Origin: Actinoalloteichus hoggarensis
Lineage (GTDB): Bacteria; Actinomycetota; Actinomycetes; Mycobacteriales; Pseudonocardiaceae
DNA length: 64,000 nucleotides
Assembly: GCF_002234535.1 (NCBI RefSeq)
Contig: NZ_CP022521.1
Coordinates: 3,410,001 to 3,474,000, forward strand
Direction of reading: 5' to 3'
The position numbers and the translations under genes were made by a program. Shown piece by piece: positions 3,248 through 25,460 of this stretch. Position 1 is the first letter of the stretch. Every line of letters starts with the position of its first letter. The notes under the pieces were generated by a model. It was not told where the DNA came from and did not search any database. It saw only the letters and a program-made list of their open reading frames with translations.

Positions 3248-4249
3248 TCAGAACGAGAATCCGGCCGGGAACGGGTCCGTCGGATCGAGCAGGTACTGCC
3301 CCATCCCCGTCACCCACGCCCGTCCGGTGATCGTCGGAACCACGGCGGGAACGCCTGCCACCTCCGTCTCCCGCACCAGTCTGCCCACGAAACGACTGCC
3401 GATGAACGACTCGTTCACGAAATCCGTGTCCAGCGCAAGCTCGCCCCGCTGCCACAGCTCCGCCATCCGGGCGCTGGTTCCCGTGCCGCAGGGCGACCGG
3501 TCGAACCAGCCGGGATGGATGGCCATGGCGTGCCGCGACAGCCTCGCGTCCGAACCGGGCGCGATGAACTCGACGTGATGGCAGTGGTTCACCCCGTCGA
3601 TGCTCGGGTGTCGCGGCGGTGCCGTGGCGTTGACGGCGGCCATGATGTCCAGCCCCGCCCGCAGGACGTCGTCGGCGCGGGATCGGTCGAAGGGCAGACC
3701 GACCGCGTCGAGCTCGACCATGGCGTAGTAGTTGCCGCCGAAGGCCAGGCTGTAGGGCACGTCCCCGAGTCCCGGCACGGTCACGACCGCGTCGAGCCGG
3801 TCCACGAAGCTCGGGACGTTCTCGATCGTCACCGACTCGGCATGCCCGTCGGAGACGGCCACCCGTGCGACCACCACGCCGGCAGGCGTGTCCAGCCGGA
3901 TGACGGTCTCCGGCTCGCGCACCTCGACCATGCCCGTCTCCACGAGCACCGACGCGACCCCGATGGTGCCGTGGCCGCACATGGGCAGGAAACCGGAGAC
4001 CTCGATGAACAGCACGCCCCAGTCGCAGTCCGGGCGGGTGCTCGGCTGAAGGATCGCCCCGCTCATCGCGGCATGCCCCCTCGGCTCGGTCACCAGGAAG
4101 GTGCGCAGTTCATCGAGATGCTCGATGGCGTGCAGTCGGCGCTCGTTCATGGTCTCGCCGGGGATGACGCCGACGCCGCCGGTCACGACGCGCGTCGGCA
4201 TCCCCTCGGTGTGCGAGTCGACCGCGCTGACGGTCCGAATGGATCGCAC
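3248..4249 (-). CDS. 4-hydroxyproline 2-epimerase (proline racemase family)
   Basis: A 333-residue member of the proline racemase family. Both catalytic cysteines are present: Cys91 in MCGHGTIG and Cys254 in SPCGTGTS. This separates it from trans-3-hydroxy-L-proline dehydratases, which have Thr at the second place. The enzyme would convert trans-4-hydroxy-L-proline to cis-4-hydroxy-D-proline. A true proline racemase cannot be excluded from motifs alone, but the neighbours (D-hydroxyproline dehydrogenase subunits and a DapA-type deaminase) fit the hydroxyproline pathway. The start is GTG at 4249, with AGGAGG about 9 nt upstream. It is the last gene of the minus-strand hydroxyproline operon, 27 bp after the DapA-type gene. 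Confidence 0.88.
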   Translation of the reverse strand: MRSIRTVSAVDSHTEGMPTRVVTGGVGVIPGETMNERRLHAIEHLDELRTFLVTEPRGHAAMSGAILQPSTRPDCDWGVLFIEVSGFLPMCGHGTIGVASVLVETGMVEVREPETVIRLDTPAGVVVARVAVSDGHAESVTIENVPSFVDRLDAVVTVPGLGDVPYSLAFGGNYYAMVELDAVGLPFDRSRADDVLRAGLDIMAAVNATAPPRHPSIDGVNHCHHVEFIAPGSDARLSRHAMAIHPGWFDRSPCGTGTSARMAELWQRGELALDTDFVNESFIGSRFVGRLVRETEVAGVPAVVPTITGRAWVTGMGQYLLDPTDPFPAGFSF

Positions 4250-4276
4250 GGGTGTCGCCCTCCTGATCGCCGGGAC

Positions 4277-5194
4277 TCAGCGGTTCCTCGTGTAGGCCAG
4301 CGCCCGCTCGGTGTCCCGACGGACGGCCGCCGCGGCCTCCTCGGAGAGCGGGCGGCGCGGCGGACGGGTCACACCGCCGTAGCTCTCGCCGACCACGTCG
4401 ATCGACAGCTTGATCGCCTGGACGAACTCGGTCTTGGAGTCCCAGGTGAACACCGGCACCATGTTCTGGTACAGCTCGCGTGCCTCGAACACCTTGCCCG
4501 CCATGACGAGCCGGTACAACTCGACGGCCTCCCGGGGGAAGGCGTTCGGGTAGCCCGCGAACCAGCCGGTCGCCCCCGCCACCAGCGATTCGAACAGCAG
4601 ATCGTCGGCGCCCGCGATGACCTGGAGGCTCGTCTTGTCCAGGATCTCCATGACGCGCCGGACGTCCCCGGAGAACTCCTTGATCGCGACGACGTTCTCC
4701 AGCCCGTCGATCTTGGCGAGCAGGTCGGGGGTGAGATCGACCTTCGTGTCGAAGGGGTTGTTGTAGGCCATGATCGGCAGGCCCACCTCGTTCACCTTCT
4801 CGTAGTGCTCGATGATCTCGCCCTCGTTGGCGCGGAAGATCGTCGGTGGCAGCAGTAACACCCCTGCCGCGCCGTCCTCGGCGGCCAGTTCGGCCCAGTG
4901 CTTGGCCTGGTGCCAGCCCACGCCGTGCACTCCCGCGACGACGAGCCCTCGGTCGCCGACGGTCTCCACCGCGACCTGGATCACCTTGCGGCGCTCCTCG
5001 TCGGTGAGCGAGGAGTACTCGCCGAGCGACCCGTTCGGGCCGACGCCTCGGCAGCCGTTGTTCATCAGCCAGTCGCAGTGCGCGGCGAAGCGGTCGAAGT
5101 CGACGGCGAGGCCTGCGGGGGCGTTCGGGTCCTCCTTGAAGGGGAGTGTGGTGGCGACGATGACGCCGCCGAGGTCGAACTGCGTGCCGGTCAT
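4277..5194 (-). CDS. DapA-family lyase, likely 1-pyrroline-4-hydroxy-2-carboxylate deaminase
   Basis: A 305-residue TIM-barrel enzyme of the DHDPS/NAL family. The Schiff-base lysine is Lys172 in VVAIKEFSG, the partner tyrosine is Tyr144 in IMAYNNPFD, and the glycine-rich GPNGSLGEY is at 52-60. Members of this family next to hydroxyproline epimerase and D-hydroxyproline dehydrogenase deaminate 1-pyrroline-4-hydroxy-2-carboxylate to 2-oxoglutarate semialdehyde; that function is inferred from context. It is unlikely to be the lysine-pathway DapA, because it sits in a catabolic operon. The ATG at 5194 overlaps the stop of the upstream oxidoreductase by 4 bp (ATGA), which fixes the start. No 2-oxoglutarate semialdehyde dehydrogenase gene is in the window, so the final step must be encoded elsewhere. 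Confidence 0.85.
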   Translation of the reverse strand: MTGTQFDLGGVIVATTLPFKEDPNAPAGLAVDFDRFAAHCDWLMNNGCRGVGPNGSLGEYSSLTDEERRKVIQVAVETVGDRGLVVAGVHGVGWHQAKHWAELAAEDGAAGVLLLPPTIFRANEGEIIEHYEKVNEVGLPIMAYNNPFDTKVDLTPDLLAKIDGLENVVAIKEFSGDVRRVMEILDKTSLQVIAGADDLLFESLVAGATGWFAGYPNAFPREAVELYRLVMAGKVFEARELYQNMVPVFTWDSKTEFVQAIKLSIDVVGESYGGVTRPPRRPLSEEAAAAVRRDTERALAYTRNR

Positions 5195-6615
5195 GGGATG
5201 TGCCCTTCCTGTGCAGTCGGGGCGGCCGGGAGCGCCGCCAGTTCCGCGAGACTGATCGGCGCCGCGAGCGGCCGCCGGTCGGTGGAGGTGTCGGCGATGG
5301 CGCCGTCGGGCACGGTCTGCCCGAGGACCTCCTCGACGTTCCTGCCGCACATCCGGGCCTGGCAGATGCCGAGCCCGGCGCGGCTGGTGAGCTTGGTGGA
5401 GCGCAGTCCCCGCGCTCGGGTGGTGTCGACGGCGTCGACGAGTTCGCCGTGGGTGACCTCCTCGCACCGGCACAGCACGGTGTCGCGGTCCAGCCACGCG
5501 GTCCAGCCCGGTCGGATGCCGTGCGCCTGTTCGATCCGCGCGGCGAAGCGGCCCGCGCCTGCCCGTCTGCGCCGCAGCGCCGCCGTCCGGCGGTCGTCGG
5601 CGGCCCCCGCGGCGGCCCGGCCGGCCAGCACGCCCTCGGTCTCGGCCGCCTGCGCGCCGCCGATGCCGGTGATCTCACCCGCGGCGAACACGCCGTCGAC
5701 GCTGGTGCGGCCGTCGGAGTCCGTGACCACGAAGCGGTCCGGGCCGATCCGGCAGCCTGCCGCGATGGCGAGTTCGAGCCTCGGCGTGAACCCGTGGCTG
5801 ACGCAGACGGCGTCCACCTCGATGCGCCGTCCGGTGCCGGGCAGCGGTGCCCACGTCGGGTCCAGTCGCGCGACGGTCACGGACTCGACCCGCTCGTCGC
5901 CGTGGGCGGCGATCACCGCGGAGCCCGCGACGTAGGGGATGCGGTGGCGGAGCTGGCCGAGCACGTAGCCGCCCAGCTCGCCCGCCTTGGCGAGGCCTGC
6001 GCCCAGTTCCCACGGTCTGGCCGCCCAGTTCCGCAGCAGCGAGGACGGCCGGGCCGCCTCGTGGACGCCGACGACGCGCGCGCCGGTGTGGGTCAGGGAG
6101 GCGGCGACCGGCAGCAGGAACGGACCCGCGCCCGCGACGAGGACTCGGCCGCCCACCGCGACGCGCTCCCCCTTGGCCAACGCCTGGGCCGCGCCCGCGG
6201 AGTAGACGCCCGGCAGGTCCCAGCCGGGGAACGGAAGGGTCCGGTCGTGGGCGCCCGTGGCGAGGACGAGGGCGGTGGGCCGGAGGGTCCGCGGCGTCCG
6301 GTCCCGGCCGTCCGCCTGCCCGACGAGAACGTGCACCCGGAGACCGTCGTCCTGGCGATCGATCGCCCAGACCTGGGCCCCGGTCACGATCTCGCACCCC
6401 GCGTCGGCGGCGAGCCGGTCGCGCAGCGCGGTGAATCGCGACCAGCCGTGATGCAGGCGTCCCTGACGGCGGGCGGGTCGCTCCGGCGGCAGGTGTCGCC
6501 AGTACTGGCCGCCCAGTTCGGCGGCGTCGAGCAGGACGACGTCCGCCCCGGCCGTGCGGGCGGCGCTCGCGGCGTTCAGTCCGGCGGGGCCCGCGCCGAT
6601 GATCACGACGGTCAT
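5191..6615 (-). CDS. FAD/NAD(P)-binding oxidoreductase, D-hydroxyproline dehydrogenase alpha-type subunit
   Basis: A 474-residue flavoprotein. The N-terminal dinucleotide fold is MTVVIIGAGPAGLNAA, a central second fold lies near GRVLVAGAGPFLLPVAASL, and a later FAD contact is GVFAAGEITGIGGAQAAE. The C-terminal part has a bacterioferredoxin-associated-type cysteine set (LCRCEEVTHGEL, then GICQARMCGRNV) that could hold a second Fe-S cluster. This layout is that of the large subunit of heteromeric amino-acid dehydrogenases (octopine/nopaline oxidase-like, LhpF-type). With the next two genes it would form the dehydrogenase that oxidises cis-4-hydroxy-D-proline. Start and stop overlap both neighbours by 4 bp, implying tight translational coupling and equal stoichiometry. 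Confidence 0.85.
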   Translation of the reverse strand: MTVVIIGAGPAGLNAASAARTAGADVVLLDAAELGGQYWRHLPPERPARRQGRLHHGWSRFTALRDRLAADAGCEIVTGAQVWAIDRQDDGLRVHVLVGQADGRDRTPRTLRPTALVLATGAHDRTLPFPGWDLPGVYSAGAAQALAKGERVAVGGRVLVAGAGPFLLPVAASLTHTGARVVGVHEAARPSSLLRNWAARPWELGAGLAKAGELGGYVLGQLRHRIPYVAGSAVIAAHGDERVESVTVARLDPTWAPLPGTGRRIEVDAVCVSHGFTPRLELAIAAGCRIGPDRFVVTDSDGRTSVDGVFAAGEITGIGGAQAAETEGVLAGRAAAGAADDRRTAALRRRRAGAGRFAARIEQAHGIRPGWTAWLDRDTVLCRCEEVTHGELVDAVDTTRARGLRSTKLTSRAGLGICQARMCGRNVEEVLGQTVPDGAIADTSTDRRPLAAPISLAELAALPAAPTAQEGHIP

Positions 6616-6965
6616 GACCGGGCCTCCGGCAGCGTGTCCGCCTGCAGGGTCACGGTGTCGCCGTCGCGGGCGCGGCGTTGGCAGGCACGCACGTCGCGTT
6701 CGCCGTTGACGGTGACGATGCAGTCGAAGCACACGCCGATTCCGCAGAACACCCCTCGCGGTCTGCGGTCCCGGCTCGTCGTCCGCCAGGAGTCGCGGCC
6801 CGCGGCCAGCAGCACGCCCGCGAGGGTCTGGCCGCGCACGCCGGTGACGGACTCGCCGTCCACCTCGATGACGAGGTCGGCCCGGTCGACGCGCCGGACC
6901 TCGTCCGTCGCCGCCGGGATCATGGTCGGGGGCGTCCGGCGCCCGGTCTCGGGTCTCGGGCTCAT
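6612..6965 (-). CDS. (2Fe-2S)-binding protein, small subunit of D-hydroxyproline dehydrogenase
   Basis: A 117-residue ferredoxin-like protein. Cys74, Cys79 and Cys82 in FCGIGVCFDC, and Cys95 in VRACQ, give the CX4CX2C...C plant-type 2Fe-2S pattern. It belongs with the flavoproteins on either side as the electron-transfer subunit. I chose the ATG at 6965 because it overlaps the stop of the upstream flavoprotein gene by 4 bp; a downstream ATG at 6923 (MIPAATDEV) is possible and would remove a non-conserved 14-residue tail. The stop overlaps the next gene in the same way. Confidence 0.85.
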   Translation of the reverse strand: MSPRPETGRRTPPTMIPAATDEVRRVDRADLVIEVDGESVTGVRGQTLAGVLLAAGRDSWRTTSRDRRPRGVFCGIGVCFDCIVTVNGERDVRACQRRARDGDTVTLQADTLPEARS

Positions 6966-8152
6966 GCGGCGCCTGCCTTCGGGTCGAGGCCGCCGACGGC
7001 GAGCGGTCGGCCGCCGGGGCGGAACGGCGTCGGGTCCACGGGCGCGTCGCCGCCGAGCAGCTCGGCGGCGAGCAGCTCGGCGGTGATCACGGACAGGCCG
7101 ATGCCCGCGCCCTCGTGGCCCGTCGCGTGCCACAGGCCGCGCAGCCGGGGGTCCTGCCCGATGAGCGGCAGGTGATCGTCGAGGTACGGCCGGAATCCGC
7201 CGTAGGCACGCATCACCGGGGCGGTGGCGAGGAAGGGGAACAGGGCGACGGCCTTGCGGGCGATCTCGCGCAGGACCTCGACGCGGAGGCTCGCGTCGAA
7301 GCCGATCTGCTCTCGGCTCGATCCGATGAGGACGGTCCCGGCGGCGGTGGACTCGACGACGCTGGACGTCTGGAGGTCGGCCTCGGCGGACTGGGTGGCG
7401 CCGACGTAGTCGCCGTCGTAGACCTTGTGGAAGACGCGGTGGGGCATGCGCGTGGTGACCAGCACCATTCCTCGGCGGGGCCGGACGAGCACCGGCGCGC
7501 CGATCCGTTCGGACACCTCGCCGGACCAGGGGCCCGCGGCGAGGACGACGGCGTCGGCGGTGAGGTCGCCGTCGGTGGTGGTGAGGCCGACGATCCGGCC
7601 GTCGCGGACGATTCCGCCCAGCACCTCGACGCCGGGGCGGACCTCGGCGCCCGCACGGCGCGCGGAGGCGAGCAGCGCCTCGCCCGCCGCCACGGGCTGG
7701 ACCTGGCAGTCCTGCGGGTAGTACACGGCGGCGGTCAGGTCACGGGTGAGGTCCGGTTCGAGCTCGTGCGCCTCCTCGGCGGACACGACGCGGGCGTCGA
7801 CTCCCGCCGCCCGCTGTTCGGCGGCGAAGTCGATCAGCGGCTGCGCGCCGATCTCCGTCGTGGCGACGACCAGCCCGCCCTTCTTCTCGAACTCGATCGA
7901 GGGGAAGTCCGGGCCCAGCTCGTCGGCGAGGTCGGCGACGACGGCGGGCCATCGGGCGTTCGCGGCCAGGGCCAGCTCCAACTCCGCTCCCGGCCCCTTG
8001 TCGGAGACCAGCAGGTTCCCCTCACAGGACGCGCTGGTGCCGGTCATCGTCGGGCCGCGGTCCACGATGAGGACACGGTGGCCTCGGCGGGCCAGCTCCC
8101 TGGCGCAGGCGGCACCGACGATGCCCGCGCCGATCACGATGATCTCGGTCAT
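6962..8152 (-). CDS. FAD-dependent D-amino-acid oxidoreductase (DAO/DadA type), D-hydroxyproline dehydrogenase beta-type subunit
   Basis: A 396-residue DAO-family flavoprotein. The N-terminal FAD motif is VIGAGIVGAACARELARRG, and the C-terminal FAD/substrate loop is GLWHATGHEGAGIGL. In heteromeric hydroxyproline dehydrogenases the DAO-type subunit carries the substrate-oxidising flavin, so this is probably the catalytic subunit; sarcosine or glycine oxidase are the alternatives by fold. It is the first gene of the hydroxyproline operon. It has a strong GGAGG ribosome site and, 20 bp before its ATG, a perfect palindrome that probably binds the neighbouring GntR regulator. A 4 bp overlap links it to the 2Fe-2S gene. 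Confidence 0.88.
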   Translation of the reverse strand: MTEIIVIGAGIVGAACARELARRGHRVLIVDRGPTMTGTSASCEGNLLVSDKGPGAELELALAANARWPAVVADLADELGPDFPSIEFEKKGGLVVATTEIGAQPLIDFAAEQRAAGVDARVVSAEEAHELEPDLTRDLTAAVYYPQDCQVQPVAAGEALLASARRAGAEVRPGVEVLGGIVRDGRIVGLTTTDGDLTADAVVLAAGPWSGEVSERIGAPVLVRPRRGMVLVTTRMPHRVFHKVYDGDYVGATQSAEADLQTSSVVESTAAGTVLIGSSREQIGFDASLRVEVLREIARKAVALFPFLATAPVMRAYGGFRPYLDDHLPLIGQDPRLRGLWHATGHEGAGIGLSVITAELLAAELLGGDAPVDPTPFRPGGRPLAVGGLDPKAGAA

Positions 8153-8172
8153 CCGCCCTCCTTCCGCTAGTA

Positions 8173-8185
8173 ATATGTCACATAT
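8173..8185. promoter_or_regulatory. Perfect palindrome, candidate GntR operator of the hydroxyproline operon
   Basis: ATATGTcACATAT is a perfect 13-bp palindrome 20 bp upstream of the first dehydrogenase gene and 84 bp past the gntR stop, in a 117 bp gap. It is the only A/T-rich island nearby and lies where a -10 element would be, which fits repression by a GntR/FCD protein acting on a short symmetrical site. It also resembles the TGTCAC core of the repeat upstream of the GH127 gene (19442-19460). Confidence 0.55.
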
Positions 8186-8269
8186 CGCACTCGAATGAGA
8201 GTGGTCTGCCTCACGAATCGCCGATGTCCGCTCGAACCGCCCGACCGATGCGGCCCGCCGAGCGTCTCG

Positions 8270-8947
8270 TCAGTGCCCGGAGGTCTCCGACCGACCGGCC
8301 CACCACCCGCTGATGTGGCTGAGATGCTGGTGCATCAAGGCCTTGGCGCCCTCGGCGTCGCCCGCCTCGATCCGGTCCAACAACAGGTGATGCTCCGAGG
8401 CCGACTGGTCGAGCTGACGCGATTCGAGCATCGTCACCAGCCCGACCAGTCGTGTCCGCGACCGCAGATCGGCGATGAGCTGGGTCAGCAGCGGATTGGC
8501 CAGCAGATCAGTGAGCGCCAGATGGAACTCCCGATCCGCCTGGAGATAGGCGTGCAGATCACTCGTCGTGGCGCCGGCGACGATGGCGTCGGCGAGTGCG
8601 CGGAACCGCGTCATGTCGACCGGGATGCCGCTGGCGGCCAGGTCCCGCATCGCCGAGGGCTCCAGTCGCTGTCGGACGTCGAGCAGCTGACCGAGCACCT
8701 CCTCGCTCACCGTGGTGACCCGGAATCCCTTGTTGCGCACCGGCGTCACGAAGCCGCGCTTCTCCAGGTCGAGCATGGCCTCCCGCACCGGCGTCGCCGA
8801 CATCTCGTACTGCGCCGCCAGCGTCGGCACCGTGAGAAGGGAGCCGGGAGCGAGCTCCCCGGACACGATGGCGGAGGAGAGCGCCTCCTCCACCTGAGCA
8901 CGCAGGCTCAGCTGCCGCTGGATCTTCGAGCCGGACAGGTTCCTCAT
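8270..8947 (-). CDS. GntR-family (FCD) transcriptional regulator
   Basis: A 225-residue protein with an N-terminal winged helix (about residues 15-80; APGSLLTVPTLAAQYEMSAT, then PVREAMLDLEKRGFV) and a C-terminal all-helical FCD effector domain (LLDVRQRLEPSAMRDLA through the LEHHLLL-like SEHHLLLDRI). FCD domains usually bind small carboxylates, often with a metal held by Asp/His residues. Its place between the peptide-import/peptidase genes and the hydroxyproline dehydrogenase genes, all on the same strand, makes it the obvious local regulator. The inducer could be hydroxyproline or a pathway intermediate (inferred). AAAGAGG precedes the ATG. Confidence 0.9.
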   Translation of the reverse strand: MRNLSGSKIQRQLSLRAQVEEALSSAIVSGELAPGSLLTVPTLAAQYEMSATPVREAMLDLEKRGFVTPVRNKGFRVTTVSEEVLGQLLDVRQRLEPSAMRDLAASGIPVDMTRFRALADAIVAGATTSDLHAYLQADREFHLALTDLLANPLLTQLIADLRSRTRLVGLVTMLESRQLDQSASEHHLLLDRIEAGDAEGAKALMHQHLSHISGWWAGRSETSGH

Positions 8948-9001
8948 CCTCTTTCACCGTCGAGCGCCTCGACCTGCTGCCTGATCGCGGTCGTCAACCG
9001 C

Positions 9002-10216
9002 TCAGCGTAGGACTCCCCGCTGAACGATCGTGCGCGGCTTGGCCTCGTCCCAGAGCACGGCCGGGTCCGTGAGCGGGTCGCCGTCGAAGACGACCAGGTC
9101 ACCCGAGAGCCCCTCGCTGATCGCGCCGATGTCCGGACGGCGCATGGCTCGGGCGTTGACCGTCGTGGCCGCCCGCAGCGTCTCCAGCACGCCGTCGACG
9201 CCGATCTGCAACCGGAGGCCGACGAGCTGGTCGTCCTCCAGCTCGCCCATGAGGTCGGAGCCGAAGCCGACCGGTACTCCCGCGCTCCTGGCGATCTTGA
9301 TCGCCTCCAGCCCCGCCGCGAGGACCTCGCTGTTCTTGGCCTGCCCCGTCGGCGACAGCCCCACCGACACGCCCCGGCGCTCCATCGCGTCGTAGGCCAC
9401 CAGGGTCGGGATCAGGTAGGCGCCGTGCTCCGCCACGACGGCGGCGGCGTGCTCGTCCATCAGGTTGCCGTGCTCGATGGTGCGCACGCCGTTCTCCACC
9501 GCGTGGATGATCGCCGCGGGCGGGTAGGCGTGCGCGGCGACGTAGCTGCCCCGGCGGGCGGCCTCGTCCGTGGCCGCGCGGACCTCGTCCGCGTGGTACT
9601 GCAGGAACTGGATCGGGTCCGTCGGCGACACCACGCCGCCCGAGGCCATGATCTTGATGGCGTGCGCGCCCGTGCGGAACCGCTCCCGCACGGCCCGGCG
9701 GACCGCGTCGGGTCCGTCGACCACCTCGGAGAGGTGCGCATGGGCGGCGCAGTGGTCCAGGTCGCCCTGACGGGGATCGCCGTGTCCGCCGGTCTGGCTC
9801 AACGCCGGTCCGGTGTAGAGGTACCGGGGGGCGGTCACGTAACCGAGGTCGATGGCCTTGGCGAGGCCCGGGTCGCCGCCCGCCACGTCGCGCACCGTGG
9901 TGAAGCCCCGGTACAGGGCCCGGCTCAGCCGGTCGGCGCCCACCAGCGAGACGTAGCTCAACGGCGACGACTCGATGGACATGACGTCGATGCTGGTCCC
10001 GTAGGCATGGAAATGGGCGTCGATGAGCCCCGGCGTGACCATCCGCCCGCCCGCGTCGAGGACCTCCCCGGCACGAGGCAGATTCCGGCCCACGGCGGTG
10101 ATGACGCCGTCGACGATCGTGATCTCGTCGGCGTCGTCCCGGACGCGCTCGCCGTCGAAGATCCGGGCGCCGACGACCGTGATCGTCCCGATCGCGGTGC
10201 TCCTCGTGCTGGTCAT
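9002..10216 (-). CDS. Metal-dependent amidohydrolase (possible Xaa-Pro dipeptidase)
   Basis: A 404-residue amidohydrolase-superfamily enzyme. The first metal pair is His68 and His70 in IDAHFHAYG. The bridging Lys is in AIKIMASGGV, further His ligands are in AAHAYPP and TIEHGNLMD, and the catalytic Asp is in GFGSDLMGEL. This subgroup includes imidazolonepropionase-like proteins and bacterial prolidases acting on Xaa-Pro dipeptides. Given the co-transcribed peptide importer, a peptidase and hydroxyproline degradation genes, hydrolysis of Xaa-Hyp or Xaa-Pro dipeptides is a reasonable inference. Its ATG overlaps the stop of the DUF885 gene by 4 bp, and gntR follows 54 bp downstream. Confidence 0.85.
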   Translation of the reverse strand: MTSTRSTAIGTITVVGARIFDGERVRDDADEITIVDGVITAVGRNLPRAGEVLDAGGRMVTPGLIDAHFHAYGTSIDVMSIESSPLSYVSLVGADRLSRALYRGFTTVRDVAGGDPGLAKAIDLGYVTAPRYLYTGPALSQTGGHGDPRQGDLDHCAAHAHLSEVVDGPDAVRRAVRERFRTGAHAIKIMASGGVVSPTDPIQFLQYHADEVRAATDEAARRGSYVAAHAYPPAAIIHAVENGVRTIEHGNLMDEHAAAVVAEHGAYLIPTLVAYDAMERRGVSVGLSPTGQAKNSEVLAAGLEAIKIARSAGVPVGFGSDLMGELEDDQLVGLRLQIGVDGVLETLRAATTVNARAMRRPDIGAISEGLSGDLVVFDGDPLTDPAVLWDEAKPRTIVQRGVLR

Positions 10217-11895: not shown

Positions 11896-11896
11896 G

Positions 11897-12727
11897 TCAG
11901 TCCTGCCCTTCTCGTGCCGTCCACTCTCGTCTCCGTCTCTCCCACTCGGGGTTGATCCTGGGCACGGCCGCCAGCAACGCCCGCGTGTACTCCTCGCGCG
12001 GGGCGTCGAACACCTGGTCCCGGCTGCCCTGCTCGACCACCCGCCCGCCGCTCATCACCGCGACGCGATCGGCGAGGCTGCGCACCACCGCCAGGTCGTG
12101 GGCGATGAAGACGTAGCTGAGGCCGAGTTCGCGTTGCAGGTCACGCAGCAGGTCGATCACCTGTGCCTGTACCGACACGTCCAGCGCGGAGACCGCCTCG
12201 TCGCAGATCACGACCTTCGGTCCCACCGCGAGCGCACGGGCGATCCCGATGCGCTGTGCCTGGCCGCCGGAGAACTGATGCGGATACCGGGTCGAGTGGT
12301 CTGGATTCAGCCCGACCCGCTCCATCAGCTCCTTGCAGAGCCGGGTCCCGTCGCCGCGCACGCCCAGGCCCTGGTAGCGCAGCGGCGCCGTGATGATCTT
12401 CTCGACGTCGTGCCGAGGGTTCAGCGAGGAGTAGGGGTCCTGGAACACCACCTGCACCGTGCGGCGGAAGGTCCGCAGCCTGGCGGGCGGCGCCGAGGTC
12501 ACGTCCTCGCCGTCCAGCTCGATCACCCCCGAGGTCGGGTCGTCGAGGCGGGCCAGCAGCCGAGCCGTCGAGGACTTCCCGCTGCCCGACTCGCCGACGA
12601 CGGCCAGGGTCTCCGACGCGCCGACCTCCAGGGTGACGTCGTCGACCGCTCGGAAGACCGGGCCGCGCCGGTTCCTGGTCGCGTACTCCCGGACGAGATT
12701 GCGCCCGGCGAGGATCGGCGTGCTCAT
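11897..12727 (-). CDS. Peptide ABC transporter ATP-binding protein (DppF/OppF type)
   Basis: A 276-residue ATPase. Walker A is GESGSGKSS, the Q-loop is in FQDPYSSLNPRHDV, the signature is FSGGQAQRIGIARAL, and Walker B is VVICDEAVSALD. The end (EYTRALLAAVPRINPE) is the usual start of the oligopeptide-ATPase tail, cut rather short. It would pair with the next ATPase to power import through the two permeases. Its start overlaps the stop of the upstream ATPase gene by 4 bp. It is part of a dpp/opp-like operon that continues into peptidase genes. Confidence 0.92.
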   Translation of the reverse strand: MSTPILAGRNLVREYATRNRRGPVFRAVDDVTLEVGASETLAVVGESGSGKSSTARLLARLDDPTSGVIELDGEDVTSAPPARLRTFRRTVQVVFQDPYSSLNPRHDVEKIITAPLRYQGLGVRGDGTRLCKELMERVGLNPDHSTRYPHQFSGGQAQRIGIARALAVGPKVVICDEAVSALDVSVQAQVIDLLRDLQRELGLSYVFIAHDLAVVRSLADRVAVMSGGRVVEQGSRDQVFDAPREEYTRALLAAVPRINPEWERRRREWTAREGQD

Positions 12728-13551
12728 GCCCCGGCCTCCTCGACGTCGTCGATGCGCGGCGTCGCGTCGAGCAGCTGCCGCGTGTAGGCGTGGCGGGGGC
12801 GGGAGAACACCTGCTCGGCGGTGCCCGCCTCCATCTGCTGCCCTCGACGCAGCACTAGCACGTCGTGGGCGACCTCGCTGACCACCGCGAGGTCGTGGGT
12901 GATGAAGAGCATCCCCACCCCGGTGTCACGCTGCAGATCGGTGAGCAGCGTCAGGATCTGTGCCTGGACGGTGACGTCGAGCGCGGTCGTCGGCTCGTCC
13001 GCGATGATGACCTCCGGCTCGCAGACCAACGCCATCGCGATCATGATCCGTTGGCGCATCCCCCCGGAGAACTGGTGGGGATAGTGGTCGAACCGCCGCT
13101 GCGGCTCCTTGATGCTGACCCGCTCCATCGCCTCGATCGCGATCTTCCTGGCCTGCGCCGCGGTCGCCCGACGGTGCGCCCGATAAGCCTCGGCGATCTG
13201 AAAGCCGACCGTGTAGTAGGGATTGAGCGAGGACAACGGATCCTGGAAGATCATCGCGATCCGCTCCCCCCGGAGCGCCCGCATCTCCCGGGCGGAGCGT
13301 TCCAGCAGCTCCTGGTCCCCGAAGCGGATGGACCCCGACGTGCGTGCGTCGGGCGGCAGCAGCCCCATGATCGCCAGGGACGTCATGGACTTGCCCGAGC
13401 CGGACTCGCCGACGACGCCGAGGGTGCGCCCGGCACGCAGCGAGAACGACAGGTCGTCGACGACCGCGTCGTCGGGATCGGGGCCGAAGGCGATGCGCAG
13501 CCCGCTGACGCGCAGCAGCTCGTCGCCCCCCGTCTGCACTGCGGCGCTCAT
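12724..13551 (-). CDS. Peptide ABC transporter ATP-binding protein (DppD/OppD type)
   Basis: A 275-residue ATPase with Walker [10 protein letters not shown], signature [15 protein letters not shown] and Walker [13 protein letters not shown]. At 275 residues it lacks most of the roughly 50-residue C-terminal oligopeptide-transporter extension common in DppD; the tail ends soon after [13 protein letters not shown]. The ATG at 13551 overlaps the stop of the permease gene by 4 bp. Function as one of two ATPases of the peptide importer is well supported by family and neighbours. Confidence 0.92.
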
Positions 13552-14543
13552 CGGGTTCCCTTCCTCACACGCGGGTCCAGCAGGGGATAGAGGAGGTCGA
13601 CGACGATGTTCATCAGCACCACCGCGGCGCCCGCCAGCAGGGTGACGCCCATGATGACCGGCTGGTCATTGGTGCCGATGGCGTCGTAGGCGAGCTTGCC
13701 GACGCCGTTGAGTCCGAACACCGTCTCCGTGATGAGCGCGCCGCCGAGCAGGGCCGCGAAGTCCATCCCGAACAGGGTGGCCACCGGGGTCAGCGACGGC
13801 CGCAGCGCATGGCGGGTCAGCAGCTGACCCTTGGGCAGGCCCTTGGCGCGTGCCGTGCGAACGTAGTTCTCCGACAGCGTGTCGAGCACGTTCGCCCTGG
13901 TCATCCGCGTGTACATCGCGGCGTACATGATGGACAGGACGATCCAGGGCATCAGGTAGGTCTGGAACCACCGGAGCGGGTCCTCCCCGAAGGCGACCAC
14001 CGTCGGGAACGGCAGCACCTGCAGCTGCACGACCAGCAGCCATTGCAGGATGAGGGCGACGAAGTAGTTGGGCAGGGCGATGCCGCCCAGCGCCAGACCG
14101 GTCGCGCCCCGGTCCCACCACGTCCCGGACTTCACCGCGGCGAGCAGGCCCGCGCCGACCCCGACGAGCAGCCACAGCAGCGCGGCGCCGATCGCGATCG
14201 TGACGGTGACGTCGATGCGGTCGCCGATCATGGTCATGACCGACTGACGGGTCTGGAAGCTGTAGCCCAGACACGGCGCCTCGCAGACGATCGCGGTGAC
14301 GCCCTCGCCGTAGGTGCGGCCGACGAAGATCCCGGCCAGGAAGGTCCAGAACTGGACCCAGAACGGGTCCTCCAGGCCGAGTCTGGTGCGGATGTCCTCG
14401 ATGCGTTCGGGGGTGCACGTCTGCCCGCAGATGCTCAGCGCGGGGTCCGGCGTGAGCACGAAGAACACGACGAAGGTGAAGAAGACGACGGCGAGCAGGA
14501 CGAGCACCGCGCTCATGAGCCGTCGGGCGATGTAGAGGGGCAT
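13548..14543 (-). CDS. Peptide ABC transporter permease (DppB/OppB type)
   Basis: A 331-residue integral membrane protein. It starts MPLYIARRLMSAVLVLLAVV with the typical first membrane helix, then a periplasmic-side loop holding two cysteines (SICGQTCTPERIE), then five further hydrophobic segments. The ATPase-contact motif is ARAKGLPKGQLLTRHALRP. I placed the start at 14543, although the frame is open upstream, because the helix begins there and the ATG overlaps the preceding stop by 1 bp (TGATG). Confidence 0.92.
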   Translation of the reverse strand: MPLYIARRLMSAVLVLLAVVFFTFVVFFVLTPDPALSICGQTCTPERIEDIRTRLGLEDPFWVQFWTFLAGIFVGRTYGEGVTAIVCEAPCLGYSFQTRQSVMTMIGDRIDVTVTIAIGAALLWLLVGVGAGLLAAVKSGTWWDRGATGLALGGIALPNYFVALILQWLLVVQLQVLPFPTVVAFGEDPLRWFQTYLMPWIVLSIMYAAMYTRMTRANVLDTLSENYVRTARAKGLPKGQLLTRHALRPSLTPVATLFGMDFAALLGGALITETVFGLNGVGKLAYDAIGTNDQPVIMGVTLLAGAAVVLMNIVVDLLYPLLDPRVRKGTR

Positions 14544-15460
14544 CAGCGCTGCGTCCTCCTCTGCAGAGTCGCCTGAAGCGTGTCGCCGATCACCATGAAC
14601 GAGAGCACGGTCAGGGTGAGGAACAGGCCGGGGATCATGAAGAACATCGGGTTGGAGGCGTACCAGGGGACGGCCGAGGAGATCATCTGTCCCCACGAGG
14701 CCGTGGGTGGTCGGACGCCGACGCCGAGGAACGACAGCCCCGCCTCGGTGGCGATGAACGTCGGCACCGACAGCGTCGCCATCACCGTGATCGTCCCCAC
14801 CAGGTTCGGCAGGACCTCCTTGAACACGATGGCGATCCGGCTCGCGCCCGAGGCCCGTGCCGCCTCGACGAACTCACGCTGGGCGATCGACATGGTCTGA
14901 CCCCGCACGACCCGCGCCGTCGCGGGCCAGCCGAACAACGCCAGCACCGCCACCAGCAGCGCGGGCCGGTTGCCCTGCGGGAGCGCCGAGAGGATCGCGA
15001 TCATGAAGATCAGCGCCGGGAAGGCCATCAGGAAGTCCATGACCCGCGAGACGACCTGGTCGACGATGCCGCCGAAGAACCCGGCGAGCACACCGAACAC
15101 GACGCCGAGCACGGTGGTGACGGCCGCCGCGCTCACCGCGATCGTCAGCGACACCTGGGCGCCGTAGACGATGCGGGCGAAGATGTCGCGACCGTTGAGC
15201 GGCTCGACGCCGAACCAGTGTTCGGCGCTCATCCCCCCGAAGGGGCCGATGGGCAGGCCCCCTCGGATGGGATCGATCTTGTCCTCGTGGAACTCGTACG
15301 GCCCGGAACCGCTGATCATCGTCAGCAGCGGCGCGAAGACCGCCATGAGGACGACGATGCCGAGGAACACGAAGGAGGCGATCACGGCGGGTCGCCGCCA
15401 TCGGCTGCCGCCGCGTCGGCGCACCGCCTGCCGGGTGAGTGCCTGTGTGGTCATCGCCAT
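14543..15460 (-). CDS. Peptide ABC transporter permease (DppC/OppC type)
   Basis: A 305-residue membrane protein. The N-terminal helix is in PAVIASFVFLGIVVLMAVFA, a long extracytoplasmic loop (HWFGVEPLNGRDIFARIVYG) is diagnostic of DppC proteins, and about five more helices follow. The coupling motif is VEAARASGASRIAIVFKEVL. Two in-frame ATGs lie close together (15460 and 15454). It forms the translocation pore with the DppB-type protein encoded next. Confidence 0.92.
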   Translation of the reverse strand: MAMTTQALTRQAVRRRGGSRWRRPAVIASFVFLGIVVLMAVFAPLLTMISGSGPYEFHEDKIDPIRGGLPIGPFGGMSAEHWFGVEPLNGRDIFARIVYGAQVSLTIAVSAAAVTTVLGVVFGVLAGFFGGIVDQVVSRVMDFLMAFPALIFMIAILSALPQGNRPALLVAVLALFGWPATARVVRGQTMSIAQREFVEAARASGASRIAIVFKEVLPNLVGTITVMATLSVPTFIATEAGLSFLGVGVRPPTASWGQMISSAVPWYASNPMFFMIPGLFLTLTVLSFMVIGDTLQATLQRRTQR

Positions 15461-15467
15461 GGCGACG

Positions 15468-17189
15468 TCACCCCTGCGGGTTCTTCAGGCCGATGGACGA
15501 GTAGTCGATGTAGCCGCTGCGGGCGGAGCTGGCGAAGGCGTTGCCGATGTTCTCGCCGACCATCTGCAGGGGCGTCTCGCGCACCAGCGGGACGACGGGG
15601 GCGAACTCCATGATCTCCCGGTCCAGCTCGCCGTAGGCGACGTTCTGCTCGTCGATGTCGGCGATCGCCTCGATCTCGTCGAACCGGTCGTTGATGGCCT
15701 GCTCGTCGAACTGGCTGATGTTCGTGTTGCCCGTGTCGGTGATGCTCTCGCCGTCGAACAACGAGGTCAGCAGGGGGTAGCCCGACATCCAGGACGAGCA
15801 CCAGCCGGTGATGGCCAGGTCGTTCTGCTGGGCGGGGGTGGCGATGACCTCGTAGAAGGTCGCCGCGTCGATGACGTTCAGCTCGACCTCGATGCCCACC
15901 GCCTGGAGGGACTGCTGCACCGACTCCGCCTGTGCCTGCCACTTCGGCAGCGCCCGGACGTCCAGCGTCAGCGTCAGGTCGCCCTCGCCGAAGCCCGCCT
16001 CCTCCAGGAGTGCGATCGCCTGTTCCTGATCCGTCGGGTAGAGGTCGAACTCCTGGCGCTCGGGCACCGACGGCGTGAGCATCGTGTGCGCCGGTTCGGC
16101 CATCGCGGGGCCGCCGGTGGCGGTGACGACGCTCTCCTTGTCGACCGCGTGGTTGATGGCCTGCCGCACCCGGACGTCGGACAACGCCTCATGGGTGTTG
16201 TTCATCGCCAGGTACATCGTGCAGGTGGGCAGCGAACGGACGGTGCGCTGCTGAAGCTCCGGATTCGACATCACCTGGGCGAGCGAGGCGGGCAGCATGC
16301 CGTTGGTGCTCGACGCCATCGCGTTCGCGTCGGAACCCTGCCCCGAGAGCATCCGCTGGTCGACGGTGTTGGCGTCGATTCCGAAGAGGAACTCGTAACC
16401 GTCGGGCGACGCGGCGCGGGTCTCGTCGGTGGCGGGGTCCCACTCCTCGTTACGGACCAGCGTCAGGCGCTCACCACGCGTGTACTCCTCCACCCGGTAC
16501 GGGCCGGACGACAGGGGCTGCTGGTCGAGCTGATCCACCGCGATCTCGCCCACCGGGAACGGTGTGAAGGGCTGGGTGGCGGCGACCGCGTCGAATCCGG
16601 CCAGCGGTCCGCGGAGGCGGAACACGATCGTCTTGTCGTCGGGCGTCTCGATGGAGTCCAGGCCCTCGGGCGCCTCATAGACGCCCGGGTAGTCGGTGGC
16701 ACCGTCGATGATCTCGTGGTAGTCCGATCCGATCGCCAACGCCGGGTCGAGTGACCGTTCGATTCCGTACTTCACATCGGCCGAGGTGATCTCACGGCCG
16801 TCCTCGTACCGCAGACCGTCCTTGAGCGTGTACGTCCACTCCGTGGCGTCCTCGTTGTACTCGCCGGGCCCGACGGCCAGATCGCCGACGATCTCCAGCT
16901 CGCCGGTCTCCTCGTCGAAGGCGAAGTCGGTGAGCTGGCGGTAGATCAGCTCGTAGACGTTGTTGACGTTGCCGTCGTTGCCCATCGCGGGATCGAGATG
17001 GGAGAGGTCGACCGACCCCAGCACGGTGACGATGCCGCCCTGCTCGGTCTCCCCCGTGTTGAGCGCGAAGCCGCCGTCCGTGGTCGTGACGTCGTCCGCG
17101 TCGTCTCCGGAGCCGCCGCAGGCGGTGAGGGTCAGCGCGGCGACCGCGAAGACTCCGATCGCGGCGCGTGCCCTGCGATGTGTGGCCAT
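15468..17189 (-). CDS. Peptide-binding lipoprotein of ABC importer (solute-binding family 5)
   Basis: A 573-residue lipoprotein. The signal peptide MATHRRARAAIGVFAVAAL ends in a lipobox with the modified residue Cys24 (LTAC-GG). The mature protein has the family-5 fold, with an early motif VLGSVDLSHLDPAMG and VRQAINHAVDKESVV in the middle. It would sit outside the membrane and deliver peptides to the permeases. The ATG at 17189 is preceded by AAGGAA. It is the first gene of the importer operon; its promoter should lie in 17190-17420. Binding specificity is not readable, but its company (hydroxyproline catabolism, GH127) suggests hydroxyproline-rich peptides or glycopeptides. Confidence 0.92.
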   Translation of the reverse strand: MATHRRARAAIGVFAVAALTLTACGGSGDDADDVTTTDGGFALNTGETEQGGIVTVLGSVDLSHLDPAMGNDGNVNNVYELIYRQLTDFAFDEETGELEIVGDLAVGPGEYNEDATEWTYTLKDGLRYEDGREITSADVKYGIERSLDPALAIGSDYHEIIDGATDYPGVYEAPEGLDSIETPDDKTIVFRLRGPLAGFDAVAATQPFTPFPVGEIAVDQLDQQPLSSGPYRVEEYTRGERLTLVRNEEWDPATDETRAASPDGYEFLFGIDANTVDQRMLSGQGSDANAMASSTNGMLPASLAQVMSNPELQQRTVRSLPTCTMYLAMNNTHEALSDVRVRQAINHAVDKESVVTATGGPAMAEPAHTMLTPSVPERQEFDLYPTDQEQAIALLEEAGFGEGDLTLTLDVRALPKWQAQAESVQQSLQAVGIEVELNVIDAATFYEVIATPAQQNDLAITGWCSSWMSGYPLLTSLFDGESITDTGNTNISQFDEQAINDRFDEIEAIADIDEQNVAYGELDREIMEFAPVVPLVRETPLQMVGENIGNAFASSARSGYIDYSSIGLKNPQG

Positions 17190-17420
17190 GATTCCTTCAC
17201 TCCCGGATGCGTCGGGGAACACTCGAGTGCCCCACTGGAGAAGGGGTGTGGTGGAGAACGGTCTGGTGGAGATGCGGTGCGATGAAACGGGTGTGGTGCG
17301 TGATCCGGCGGTGCGACGGTGCGGCGCCGGCACGCCGCGATGCCGGGGAAGCGATGCGGGGGGCGCCGGCCGCGCGGACCGTCGTCGCGGCGACCCCGGT
17401 GCGGGCGTCATCCGCACGGA

Positions 17421-17438
17421 CGGCCCTGGTACGGGCCG
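17421..17438 (-). terminator. Hairpin downstream of the GH127 gene
   Basis: CGGCCC-tggtac-GGGCCG forms a perfect 6 bp GC stem 13 bp past the GH127 stop, in the 261 bp gap before the importer operon. It may end GH127 transcription only partly. The rest of the gap (17190-17420) holds no gene and should contain the importer promoter; no clear -35/-10 pair is visible. Confidence 0.35.
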
Positions 17439-17450
17439 CCCGAGGTGGCG

Positions 17451-19412
17451 TCATCCGCCGCGGAGCCAGACGCGCATGGCATCGGCTCCCCGATTGGCCC
17501 ACAACCGATACGGCAGGAGGTCGACGGTCGTCGGCTCCGCCGGCTGCTCCGACTCGGCGGTCGCGTCGAGCACCGGGTAGAGCTCGGCGGACGCCGCCGG
17601 GCGTGCCCTGGCGTCCAGCGTGATGCGCAGGACGTCGGTGTCGGGGTCCGAGCCGAGACGACCGGCGTGGACGCGAGCGGAGCCGAGGTCGGCCGGGCAC
17701 AGCACGACGTCGTCCAGGGGCGCGTGCTGGTCCTGCTGTTCGGCGCAGTAGACGACCGGTCCCCTGGCGACGGCGATCGAGCCGCGAAGCGCGTCGACCG
17801 ACGGGTGCGCGCCGTGGAACCGCACCGGCATGGGCAGGTCGAGTTCGACGACGGTTCCGGACGCCCAGTCACGGCGCAGCCGAAGCCAGCCCCCGTCGGT
17901 CTCGACGGGCACGTCCTCGCCGTCGATCCGGGCGGCGGCGCCGTCGGTCCACGCGGGAATCCGGAGGGCCAGCTCCGTGTCCGGCTCGGCACGGTCGATC
18001 GTCACGGTCACGCGGCCGTCGTCCGGATAGGCGGTCCGAAGTCGCAGGGCGATGCGCTCGGTGTCGACGTCGGCGTCGGCGTAGACGACCAGCCCGACGC
18101 CGCCCGGCGTGACGATCGCCAGGTGGTCCTGGAGTTCGGCCGTCCAGCGGATGACGTTGGGCGGACAGCACGCGCAGACGAACCACTCACGCCGCGGCGG
18201 CGAGCCCGTCGGGGCGCCGCCGCCCTGCCGGTGTTCGGGCCGACGTTGCAGCGGATTGTCGTAGGAGAACGCCGTGCCACCCTGGGACAGCGCGACGGCG
18301 TAGGCGTTGTACAGGATCCGCTCGAACACGTCGCCGTACCGCGCGTCCCCGGTGGCCAGCAGCAGGCGCCACGCCCACTGCATCGTGCCGATCGCCGCGC
18401 AGGTCTCCGAGTAGGAGCGTTCCGAGGGCAGTTCGTATCGGTCGCCGACCGCCTCGTCGGAGTGTCGAGCGCCGAGCCCGCCGGTCAGGTACAGCCTGGT
18501 GGCGAGCATGTCGTCCCAGAGCCGCCGGGACGCGGCGAGCAGTTCGGCGTCGTCGCGCTCGATCGCCACGTCGGTGGCGCCCGCGGCGAGGTACACCATC
18601 CGCACGGCGTGCCCCCGCACCCCGGTGAGCTCGCGGAAAGGGGCGTCGTCCTGGAAGTAGTCGGCGGAGAAGAAGGTCTTCGGCACGGAGCCGTGACCCC
18701 GACGGTCCACGAACGACGCGGCGAGGTCGAGATACCGCTGGTCCCCGGTGTGCCGTGCCAGTTCGACGAGTGCCGTCTCCACCTCGGGATGACCGCACCC
18801 GTCGCCGGTGCCCGCGAAGCGGATGACCGCCAGGTCGGCGAATCGGACGGCGACCCGCAGCAGCCGGTCGTCGCCCGCCTGCCTGCTCGCGGCCACGGCG
18901 GCCTGCACCAGGTGCCCGAGGTTGTACAGCTCGTGTCCCCAGGCGAGGTCCTCCCACGGTTCGCGGGTGGTGTGCTCGTTCTGGACGAAGGAGTTGAGGT
19001 ACCCGTCGGCCCGCTGCGCCCGCTCGATGAGGTCGAGCGCCTCCGACCAGAAGGCAGTCACCGCCTCGTCGGCCGTGCCTCGCCCGATCTCGTAGGCGAG
19101 CCCCTCCAGTGTCTTGTAGACGTCGGTGTCCAGAAACGGGTAGCGCCCGACGTATTCCGCGCCCGTACCGTCGGCCACTGCACGCAGGTTGCCGAGGATG
19201 CCCTGGTCACGCAGCCGCGCGATGGTGTGCGGGATGGTCGCGGCCCGATTGCGCTCCTGCCAGTCGCCGAGCAGGCCGCCGCGCAGGACGACCGTGTCGG
19301 CGGACGTCGCGTGGGCCCGGTCCGAAGTGGGTCGTACGGCGGCGAGGCGACCCGCCCGGGCGGCGGACGCCGGGGCGCTCACCTCACGTTCTGCACTCGT
19401 CGTACGGTCCAT
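17451..19412 (-). CDS. GH127 beta-L-arabinofuranosidase (HypBA1-like)
   Basis: A 653-residue intracellular glycoside hydrolase without signal peptide. The conserved zinc/nucleophile site is intact: Glu336 and Cys338 in SYSETCAAIG, and Cys413, Cys415 and Cys416 in FVCACCPPN, with the candidate acid/base Glu320 sixteen residues before Glu336. This spacing equals that of Bifidobacterium HypBA1 (Glu322, Glu338, Cys340, Cys415, Cys417, Cys418, from memory), as does the total length. HypBA1 removes L-arabinose from beta-L-arabinofuranosyl chains attached to hydroxyproline in plant glycoproteins. The next genes import peptides and degrade hydroxyproline, which fits that activity. The start at 19412 has AAAGGA 7 nt upstream; an open extension to 19457 lacks a ribosome site and would run over the inverted repeat. 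Confidence 0.9.
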   Translation of the reverse strand: MDRTTSAEREVSAPASAARAGRLAAVRPTSDRAHATSADTVVLRGGLLGDWQERNRAATIPHTIARLRDQGILGNLRAVADGTGAEYVGRYPFLDTDVYKTLEGLAYEIGRGTADEAVTAFWSEALDLIERAQRADGYLNSFVQNEHTTREPWEDLAWGHELYNLGHLVQAAVAASRQAGDDRLLRVAVRFADLAVIRFAGTGDGCGHPEVETALVELARHTGDQRYLDLAASFVDRRGHGSVPKTFFSADYFQDDAPFRELTGVRGHAVRMVYLAAGATDVAIERDDAELLAASRRLWDDMLATRLYLTGGLGARHSDEAVGDRYELPSERSYSETCAAIGTMQWAWRLLLATGDARYGDVFERILYNAYAVALSQGGTAFSYDNPLQRRPEHRQGGGAPTGSPPRREWFVCACCPPNVIRWTAELQDHLAIVTPGGVGLVVYADADVDTERIALRLRTAYPDDGRVTVTIDRAEPDTELALRIPAWTDGAAARIDGEDVPVETDGGWLRLRRDWASGTVVELDLPMPVRFHGAHPSVDALRGSIAVARGPVVYCAEQQDQHAPLDDVVLCPADLGSARVHAGRLGSDPDTDVLRITLDARARPAASAELYPVLDATAESEQPAEPTTVDLLPYRLWANRGADAMRVWLRGG

Positions 19413-19441
19413 GCGTGCGTCCTTTCGCCGTCCAGCCGCAT

Positions 19442-19460
19442 GTAGTGGGTGACACACTAC
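19442..19460. promoter_or_regulatory. Inverted repeat upstream of the GH127 gene
   Basis: GTAGTG (19442-19447) and CACTAC (19455-19460) are perfect inverted arms around a 7 bp spacer, 30 bp before the GH127 ATG and next to a lower-GC stretch (19461-19510) that should hold the promoter. Read on the minus strand the centre contains TGTGTCAC, similar to the TATGTCAC centre of the palindrome upstream of the hydroxyproline genes. It is a likely repressor site; the regulator could be the GntR protein encoded at 8270-8947 (inferred). Confidence 0.5.

Positions 19461-22497: not shown

Positions 22498-25460
<2,963 letters not shown>

Follow-up and report, generated by a model that had tools for sequence, protein, structure and literature searches.

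A GH127 glycoside hydrolase gene, a peptide-type importer and a hydroxyproline operon with a common predicted operator in Actinoalloteichus hoggarensis

The window considered here is a stretch of 64,000 nucleotides from the 6.6 Mb, single-contig, high-GC genome of Actinoalloteichus hoggarensis (NZ_CP022521.1, positions 3,410,001 to 3,474,000; G000:C1:3410001-3474000). From position 19412 down to 3248 it carries 14 consecutive minus-strand genes, all with open frames. They encode, in order, a GH127-family glycoside hydrolase, an SBP_bac_5 substrate-binding lipoprotein with OppC, OppB, OppD and OppF components, a DUF885 protein, an amidohydrolase, a GntR/FCD regulator, and five proteins assigned to hydroxyproline (Hyp) catabolism with DAO, 2Fe-2S, Pyr_redox/BFD, DHDPS and Pro_racemase domains (Table 1). 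We consider it likely that the locus is a HypR-type regulon for short beta-L-arabinosylated Hyp (glyco)peptides or Hyp-arabinosides. A preliminary description, made from the sequence itself, had placed all of these genes on one strand, and Pfam matches and open frames bear this out. It had also put them in metabolic order, which is wrong: the epimerase, the first catabolic step, is encoded by the last gene. Neighbouring genes overlap by 1–4 bp or are separated by 1–54 bp, except for gaps of 261 bp between GH127 and SBP and 117 bp between GntR and DAO. Several starts in the mechanical list of reading frames lay too early and were moved to 5194 (DHDPS), 6615 (FAD/BFD protein) and 10216 (amidohydrolase). 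The SBP frame extends to 17417, but the signal sequence, read at the N-terminus, begins at Met 17189, the probable start. The GH127 gene probably starts at ATG 19412 rather than GTG 19457, because the operator described below falls inside the longer frame. Scans for sigma-70 promoters and terminators found none and two, respectively, no excess over shuffled sequences.

Table 1. Genes and predicted operators of the locus, in window coordinates.
Feature	Position	Strand	Domains and remarks
Operator before GH127, TAGTGTGTCAC within dyad TAGTGTGTCACCCACTA	19449..19459	-	37-47 bp ahead of GH127 start
GH127 glycoside hydrolase, 653 aa	17451..19412	-	PF07944/PF20736/PF20737 (catalytic, middle and C-terminal domains)
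Family-5 substrate-binding lipoprotein, SBP_bac_5	15468..17189	-	PF00496; lipobox LTAC
OppC-type permease	14543..15460	-	PF00528; NCBIfam Opp4C top match, under cut-off
OppB-type permease	13548..14543	-	PF00528+PF19300
OppD-type ATPase	12724..13551	-	PF00005+PF08352
OppF-type ATPase	11897..12727	-	PF00005+PF08352
DUF885 protein, 560 aa	10213..11895	-	PF05960, 459.7 bits; motif HEAAPGH
COG1228 amidohydrolase, prolidase-like	9002..10216	-	PF01979 (Amidohydro_1)
FadR-subfamily GntR regulator, 225 aa, HypR-like	8270..8947	-	PF00392+PF07729
Operator before Hyp operon, TAATATGTCAC within dyad ATATGTCACATAT	8171..8181	+	between GntR and DAO, 19-29 bp ahead of DAO
D-Hyp dehydrogenase beta-type subunit (DAO)	6962..8152	-	PF01266; position as SCO6289
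D-Hyp dehydrogenase gamma-type subunit (2Fe-2S), 117 aa	6612..6965	-	CGIGVCFDC...C by eye and homology, no Pfam scan
D-Hyp dehydrogenase alpha-type subunit (FAD/NAD fold and BFD-like 2Fe-2S)	5191..6615	-	PF07992+PF04324; domains as SCO6291
Predicted DHDPS-family pyrroline-4-hydroxy-2-carboxylate deaminase	4277..5194	-	PF00701; position as SCO6292
Proline-racemase-family 4-hydroxyproline epimerase (predicted from context)	3248..4249	-	PF05544, 410.7 bits; Cys91/Cys254; position as SCO6293

The last five genes follow the order of SCO6289–SCO6293 in Streptomyces coelicolor (dehydrogenase subunits beta, gamma and alpha, then DHDPS and epimerase), with matching domains (PMC6608401). An S. coelicolor mutant lacking the epimerase gene SCO6293 does not grow on L-Hyp (PMC6608401). 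The small 2Fe-2S-type gene completes a three-subunit D-Hyp dehydrogenase, and its homologues occupy the same place in related loci. By gene content, the route from trans-4-hydroxy-L-proline to 2-oxoglutarate semialdehyde is present, as had been proposed. The top NCBIfam match of the alpha-type subunit (TIGR01372) and the dapA match of the DHDPS-family protein are both under cut-off. The racemase-family protein retains two catalytic cysteines, in the motifs CGHG (91) and CGTG (254); such a pair is found in proline racemases and many 4-Hyp epimerases, and in 3-Hyp dehydratases the second of these positions is a Thr (PMC4113996). Its specificity, like those of the two peptidase-type proteins, is one that we infer. 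In two related genomes, G330 and G950 (L098 8188-10172, L100 8686-10652), the Hyp operon ends in two tandem proline-racemase-family genes, approximately 70% and 38% identical to that of the window.

The GH127 protein has been compared in detail with HypBA1, and the exact Glu/Cys spacing claimed at the outset is confirmed, all 12 aligned active-site residues being identical (H142, Y145, H194, H270, R273, E322, E338, C340, Y386, C415, C417 and C418). In HypBA1 numbering we take Cys417 to be the nucleophile, Glu322 the acid/base and Glu338, Cys340, Cys417 and Cys418 the zinc ligands. The sugar-site residues H142, Y145, H194 and R273 and the Cys3-Glu zinc site of HypBA1 are described in PMC10850190. 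No signal peptide is visible by eye at the N-terminus, so the enzyme is probably cytosolic; HypBA1 is likewise intracellular (PMC7263609). The window's protein is thus a predicted intracellular beta-L-arabinofuranosidase. It may remove beta-L-arabinofuranose from Hyp, and HypBA1 is listed as acting on beta-1,2-arabinosyl-Hyp in a review (PMC7889515).

The closest solved relatives by sequence are the beta-L-arabinofuranosidases BT3674 (6ex6), Ara127N (4qjy) and HypBA1 (3wkw), which have the fold and the Cys/Glu/Zn site in common with the window's enzyme at approximately 26–32% identity. BT_1003 (5mqo), which we take to have an aceric acid function, scores lowest among the GH127 relatives by a narrow margin (247.5 bits, compared with 256 for HypBA1); by fold it ranks ninth, after BT3674, Ara127N and several HypBA1 entries, with E-values that are close. 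The AlphaFold model has a mean pLDDT of 71.8, falling below 50 at residues 309-334 and 384-412, stretches which hold or border active-site residues, and it was therefore used for fold comparison alone. The genome has another GH127 gene (G000:C1:3723327-3725018, at 3.72 Mb), whose product is approximately 40–42% identical to this enzyme and groups, on a long branch, with an enzyme from another genome of the family (G171, below).

The genes between GH127 and the regulator are predicted to serve peptide uptake and cleavage. The binding protein is most similar, among solved structures, to the oligopeptide-binding protein 2wok (E 3e-66). The DUF885 protein, in which the motif HEAAPGH could be read, has solved relatives without a named function; we take it to be a possible metallopeptidase. 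The amidohydrolase is closest among solved structures to the COG1228 proteins 3feq and 3n2c, named as amidohydrolase/prolidase (E 1.4e-87), and its top NCBIfam match is Xaa-Pro dipeptidase, under cut-off at 216 of 500 bits; action on Xaa-Hyp is a prediction made here. These two genes follow OppF in the window's genus. In all five other loci scanned at this position (L006, L007, L008, L010 and G408) the slot is filled by an M24 peptidase with an aminopeptidase-P N-terminal domain, for which the top NCBIfam match is Xaa-Pro aminopeptidase, under cut-off; an alpha/beta hydrolase precedes it in L006 and L008, and an alpha/beta hydrolase is what the sole open reading frame scanned at the slot in G330 encodes. 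One proline-type peptidase has been swapped for another among relatives, which suggests Pro/Hyp peptides as the cargo. In G408 a 63% relative of the amidohydrolase lies across an operator from the Hyp operon, in divergent orientation, which ties the amidohydrolase to the regulon.

How general is the association of the two blocks? The order GH127-SBP-OppC-OppB-OppD-OppF is found on one strand at 17 loci (L009 ends at a contig edge in OppD), and the 17 GH127 proteins form one clade with 100/100 support in a tree of 44 rows built without the solved enzymes. Those from named genomes comprise Glaciibacter, three Plantibacter, four Streptomyces and a Nonomuraea locus; the tenth of the 10 loci of the named-genome search, from Amycolatopsis (L012, 46%), is without Opp genes. 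The 17 loci are not independent, as three come from the window's genus and several from one microbacterial group. At 12 of them the Hyp block lies in the same cluster (the window, G043, G076, G487, G412, L004, L005, L006, L007, L009, L010 and L011), with L009/G951 counted across a contig break and L005, L006 and L011 read in part. At the other five (G293, G408, G330, L003/G949 and L008/G950) the five-gene block is elsewhere in the genome, approximately 32 kb away in L003/G949, and some of its genes align as separate pieces in G408 and G330. The preliminary description had asked whether the blocks are ever found together in relatives: they do occur together, in Streptomyces and Plantibacter (Microbacteriaceae) as well as in the window's own family.

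The GH127 orthologue itself is rare. At 57% identity or above it occurs in six of 394 genomes of the class, the window's included, followed by a gap to 49%, and in the phylum sample it was found (E <= 1e-170) in two of 396 genomes, one being the window's own. A close epimerase (E <= 1e-140) is present in all six orthologue genomes of the class sample, compared with 26 of the 52 other GH127 genomes and 81 of 394 genomes overall; for 6/6 against 26/52 the Fisher p is 0.022, with rows that are related. As a contrast, G215 and G360, which have a GH127 without Opp genes, gave no epimerase match in either case. In a sample of 200 genomes of the family, GH127 and racemase genes lie within 25 kb of one another in 8 of 38 genomes where 0.66 would be expected, both figures being based on genomes that have both, with GH127 places down to approximately 110 bits and with partial or weaker rows (G147 and G192, for example) left out. 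The pairs counted as close include G146:C27 and G093:C40, where a divergent GH127-family gene and a proline-racemase gene of a lower-scoring kind lie approximately 20 kb apart.

The two blocks also appear to have an operator in common. The sequences ahead of the GH127 gene and the Hyp operon both fit the pattern TARTRTGTCAC, which was derived from them, so that the window contains it by definition. Across the whole genomes of the window's organism, G043 and G076, however, the pattern has exactly two sites each, always at the GH127 and Hyp promoters, and the reversed control has none. A relaxed form, TANTRTGTCAC, gave 17 sites in 12 further genomes, 15 of which lie before GH127, Opp or Hyp operons; one of the others is beside the Hyp block of G171 and one is elsewhere (G953:C2:916967), with G954 and G955 having zero. 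G293, with 1.16 Mb between its blocks, has only three sites, a pair before GH127 and a single one before DAO. In the scans made, the 261-bp gap between GH127 and SBP contains no operator. The Streptomyces loci L007, L009/L103 and L011 have instead a motif, AGTGCAATGYTACA, before both GH127 and DHDPS-ProR, and a similar motif precedes GH127 in L008 and G330. The two motifs are similar to HypR sites that have been published, TACAATGTCAC and TGCAATGTCAC (PMC6608401), of which TACAATGTCAC is the site footprinted in S. coelicolor; there the operator ends in ATGTCAC or GTGTCAC, as in the window. HypR (SCO6294), a FadR-type GntR protein of 225 amino acids, represses the Hyp operon of S. coelicolor (PMC6608401), and the window's regulator is likened to it by family and length rather than by direct alignment. 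In most of the loci read, a GntR relative adjoins either the Hyp block or the GH127 cluster; at L010 none was seen. A FadR-type GntR gene with HypR-like predicted operators before its targets is the basis on which we class the locus, by sequence, as a HypR regulon.

Other genomes pair arabinoside genes with the Hyp operon in a different way. In G171, from the window's family, the region upstream of the Hyp operon encodes a sugar-type importer and a GH121-domain protein, together with a large protein of the GH127 family and a GH127 enzyme belonging to a different clade; approximately 1.8 kb separates these arabinoside genes from DAO, 2Fe-2S, FAD, DHDPS and ProR. The GH121 beta-L-arabinobiosidase-domain protein is a relative of PDB 6m5a (E 1.2e-99), and Hyp-linked beta-arabinosides are the substrates of the single GH121 enzyme characterised so far (PMC7263609). 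It therefore seems that the removal of beta-arabinosides and the catabolism of Hyp have come together more than once. The cluster as a whole (L059 3373-18396, L060 1262-6750) is a Bifidobacterium longum-like arabinoside cluster joined with Hyp catabolism. G021 (L057-L058) has a GH146-like protein (relatives PDB 5opj and 8k7y), an alpha/beta hydrolase, a related Opp set and a GntR gene around its Hyp operon, and an Aldedh-domain gene beside the epimerase.

A scheme that fits these data would begin outside the cell, where other enzymes or organisms may free Hyp glycopeptides for uptake by the lipoprotein-dependent Opp-type ABC importer. In the cytosol, GH127 would cut beta-L-arabinofuranose from Hyp by the Cys/Zn mechanism to which its residues point. 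The DUF885 protein and the prolidase-like amidohydrolase could then free Hyp from the peptides, as their families and the proline-type peptidase in the same slot of relatives suggest. With the gene set and order of S. coelicolor, the epimerase, three-subunit D-Hyp dehydrogenase and DHDPS-family deaminase would convert trans-4-hydroxy-L-proline to 2-oxoglutarate semialdehyde. By analogy with HypR, the GntR/FadR regulator may bind the predicted operators and repress both units until Hyp or a metabolite appears. Hyp is probably the main gain from the locus. In a stronger form of the scheme, intact arabinosylated Hyp glycopeptides (extensin fragments, and also tri-arabinosylated CLE/PSY-type peptide hormones of plants) are imported whole through a dedicated importer for peptides and deglycosylated inside by a specialised GH127 clade; this we regard as rather unlikely.

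Several observations weigh against a regulon for arabinosylated Hyp peptides. Only 127 of 384 aligned catalytic positions are identical between the window's GH127 and HypBA1, and the active-site residues were rejected as a substrate discriminator, since BT3674 has them in common with HypBA1. The racemase-family protein scores highest against the NCBIfam proline racemase model (334 of 556 bits), with the 4-Hyp epimerase model next (325 of 376), and its best solved relative is the proline racemase 7pb3 (E 2.6e-83); all NCBIfam models of this family stay under their cut-offs, so that the assignment as 4-Hyp epimerase rests on context. The reversed form of the relaxed operator pattern gave 13 sites in the 12 further genomes, compared with 17, so that it is the position of the sites, not their number, that counts as evidence. 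That form is absent from the GH127 promoters of G408, G330, L008 and the Streptomyces loci, and neither L010 nor the GH127 promoter of G408 yielded a common motif (G408 being outside one of the two comparisons). The locus had been called complete-looking, which stands for the Hyp route as far as 2-oxoglutarate semialdehyde but is too strong beyond it. There is no aldehyde dehydrogenase among the 14 genes, although that of S. coelicolor likewise does not adjoin its Hyp operon (PMC6608401). A search of the window's genome with the G171 GH121 homologue as query, run without a positive control, found no match. AraA_N (PF02610) was found in eight of the 14 Opp-linked genomes searched (those of L005, L006 and L011 were outside the search) and not in the window's genome, G043, G076 or three Streptomyces genomes. 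The block therefore occurs even without the usual arabinose route.

This last point bears on the possibility that the importer carries beta-arabinosides or other wall oligosaccharides (from pectin, arabinogalactan or RG-II) for cleavage by GH127, the Hyp operon being co-regulated because Hyp signals plant wall. SBP_bac_5 importers are able to carry non-peptides, including sugars, and the only NCBIfam GH127 match of the enzyme is ‘aceric acid hydrolase’ (NF049879). This match, at 351 of 950 bits, is far under the cut-off, and as a sub-threshold model match it was rejected as an identity; BT_1003 is likewise the lowest of the relatives by sequence and ninth by fold. The 14 genes include a prolidase-like gene and no recognised sugar-catabolic gene, and with AraA absent from six of the 14 genomes we think a sugar-centred function unlikely. 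A locus for plain Hyp or Pro peptides, from collagen or unglycosylated plant peptides, would have all it requires in the peptidases and Opp genes, and HypR of S. coelicolor does control a collagenase (PMC6608401). GH127 would then be a fellow traveller with another role, which appears improbable for the first gene after the operator, one that adjoins Opp in 17 of 17 loci of its clade, the more so given that a different GH127 and a GH121 homologue stand beside the Hyp operon in G171. The separation of the blocks in five of 17 genomes might be taken to mean that two unrelated operons adjoin by chance. The operator is common even to unlinked blocks, and this explanation, to which we give hardly any credence, was rejected on operator positions and on the 8 of 38 genomes against 0.66 expected. 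An import and degradation locus for arabinosylated Hyp compounds thus remains the likely reading.

Beyond the locus, the genes scanned between 27077 and 63780 encode parts of a modular type I polyketide synthase (KS, AT, DH, ER, KR, ACP and a terminal thioesterase), the open reading frame at 46940-61006 being outside the scan. With two EryCIII-type glycosyltransferase genes, they constitute a macrolide-like biosynthetic cluster. Between it and the Hyp locus (20774-25445) lie a D-2-hydroxyacid dehydrogenase gene and an argininosuccinate-synthase-like gene, which may belong to the polyketide cluster.

Both halves of the proposed system have known counterparts. The HypR regulon of S. coelicolor (SCO6289-SCO6294) adds to the five-gene block a collagenase and a 2-oxoglutarate dehydrogenase/decarboxylase (PMC6608401), where the window adds GH127, the Opp importer and two peptidase-type genes; the words ‘arabin’ and ‘extensin’ are absent from the main text of that paper. 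The HypAA-HypBA2-HypBA1 system of B. longum (BLLJ_0208-0213) also combines an intracellular GH127 enzyme with an ABC importer for Hyp-linked beta-L-arabinosides, but trims its substrates outside the cell with GH43 and GH121 enzymes, takes up beta-Ara2 through an importer of the sugar type and breaks it down hydrolytically to arabinose (PMC7263609). The window differs in having a peptide-type importer (SBP_bac_5 with OppB, C, D and F), an attached Hyp operon and no GH121 match. Searches of an openly licensed library listed no paper that connects GH127 with a locus for Hyp breakdown, in keeping with the initial view that this is not a described actinomycete system.

In conclusion, the arrangement connects beta-L-arabinofuranosidase biology, known until now chiefly from gut bacteria and Xanthomonas that harvest sugars, with actinobacterial Hyp catabolism by way of a single operator and a single importer. 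From it follow predictions of substrate and inducer for a GH127 clade for which we found no assigned function, and of a role for the DUF885 protein and the Opp importer. If arabinosylated glycopeptides are indeed imported whole, glycosylated peptide signals of plants could be consumed, or silenced, by actinobacteria that live in soil or in association with plants. The sugar-decorated Hyp peptides that the bacterium would take in probably derive from plant cell walls, and the locus may represent a route by which bacteria of soil and plant surfaces use extensin-type glycoproteins.

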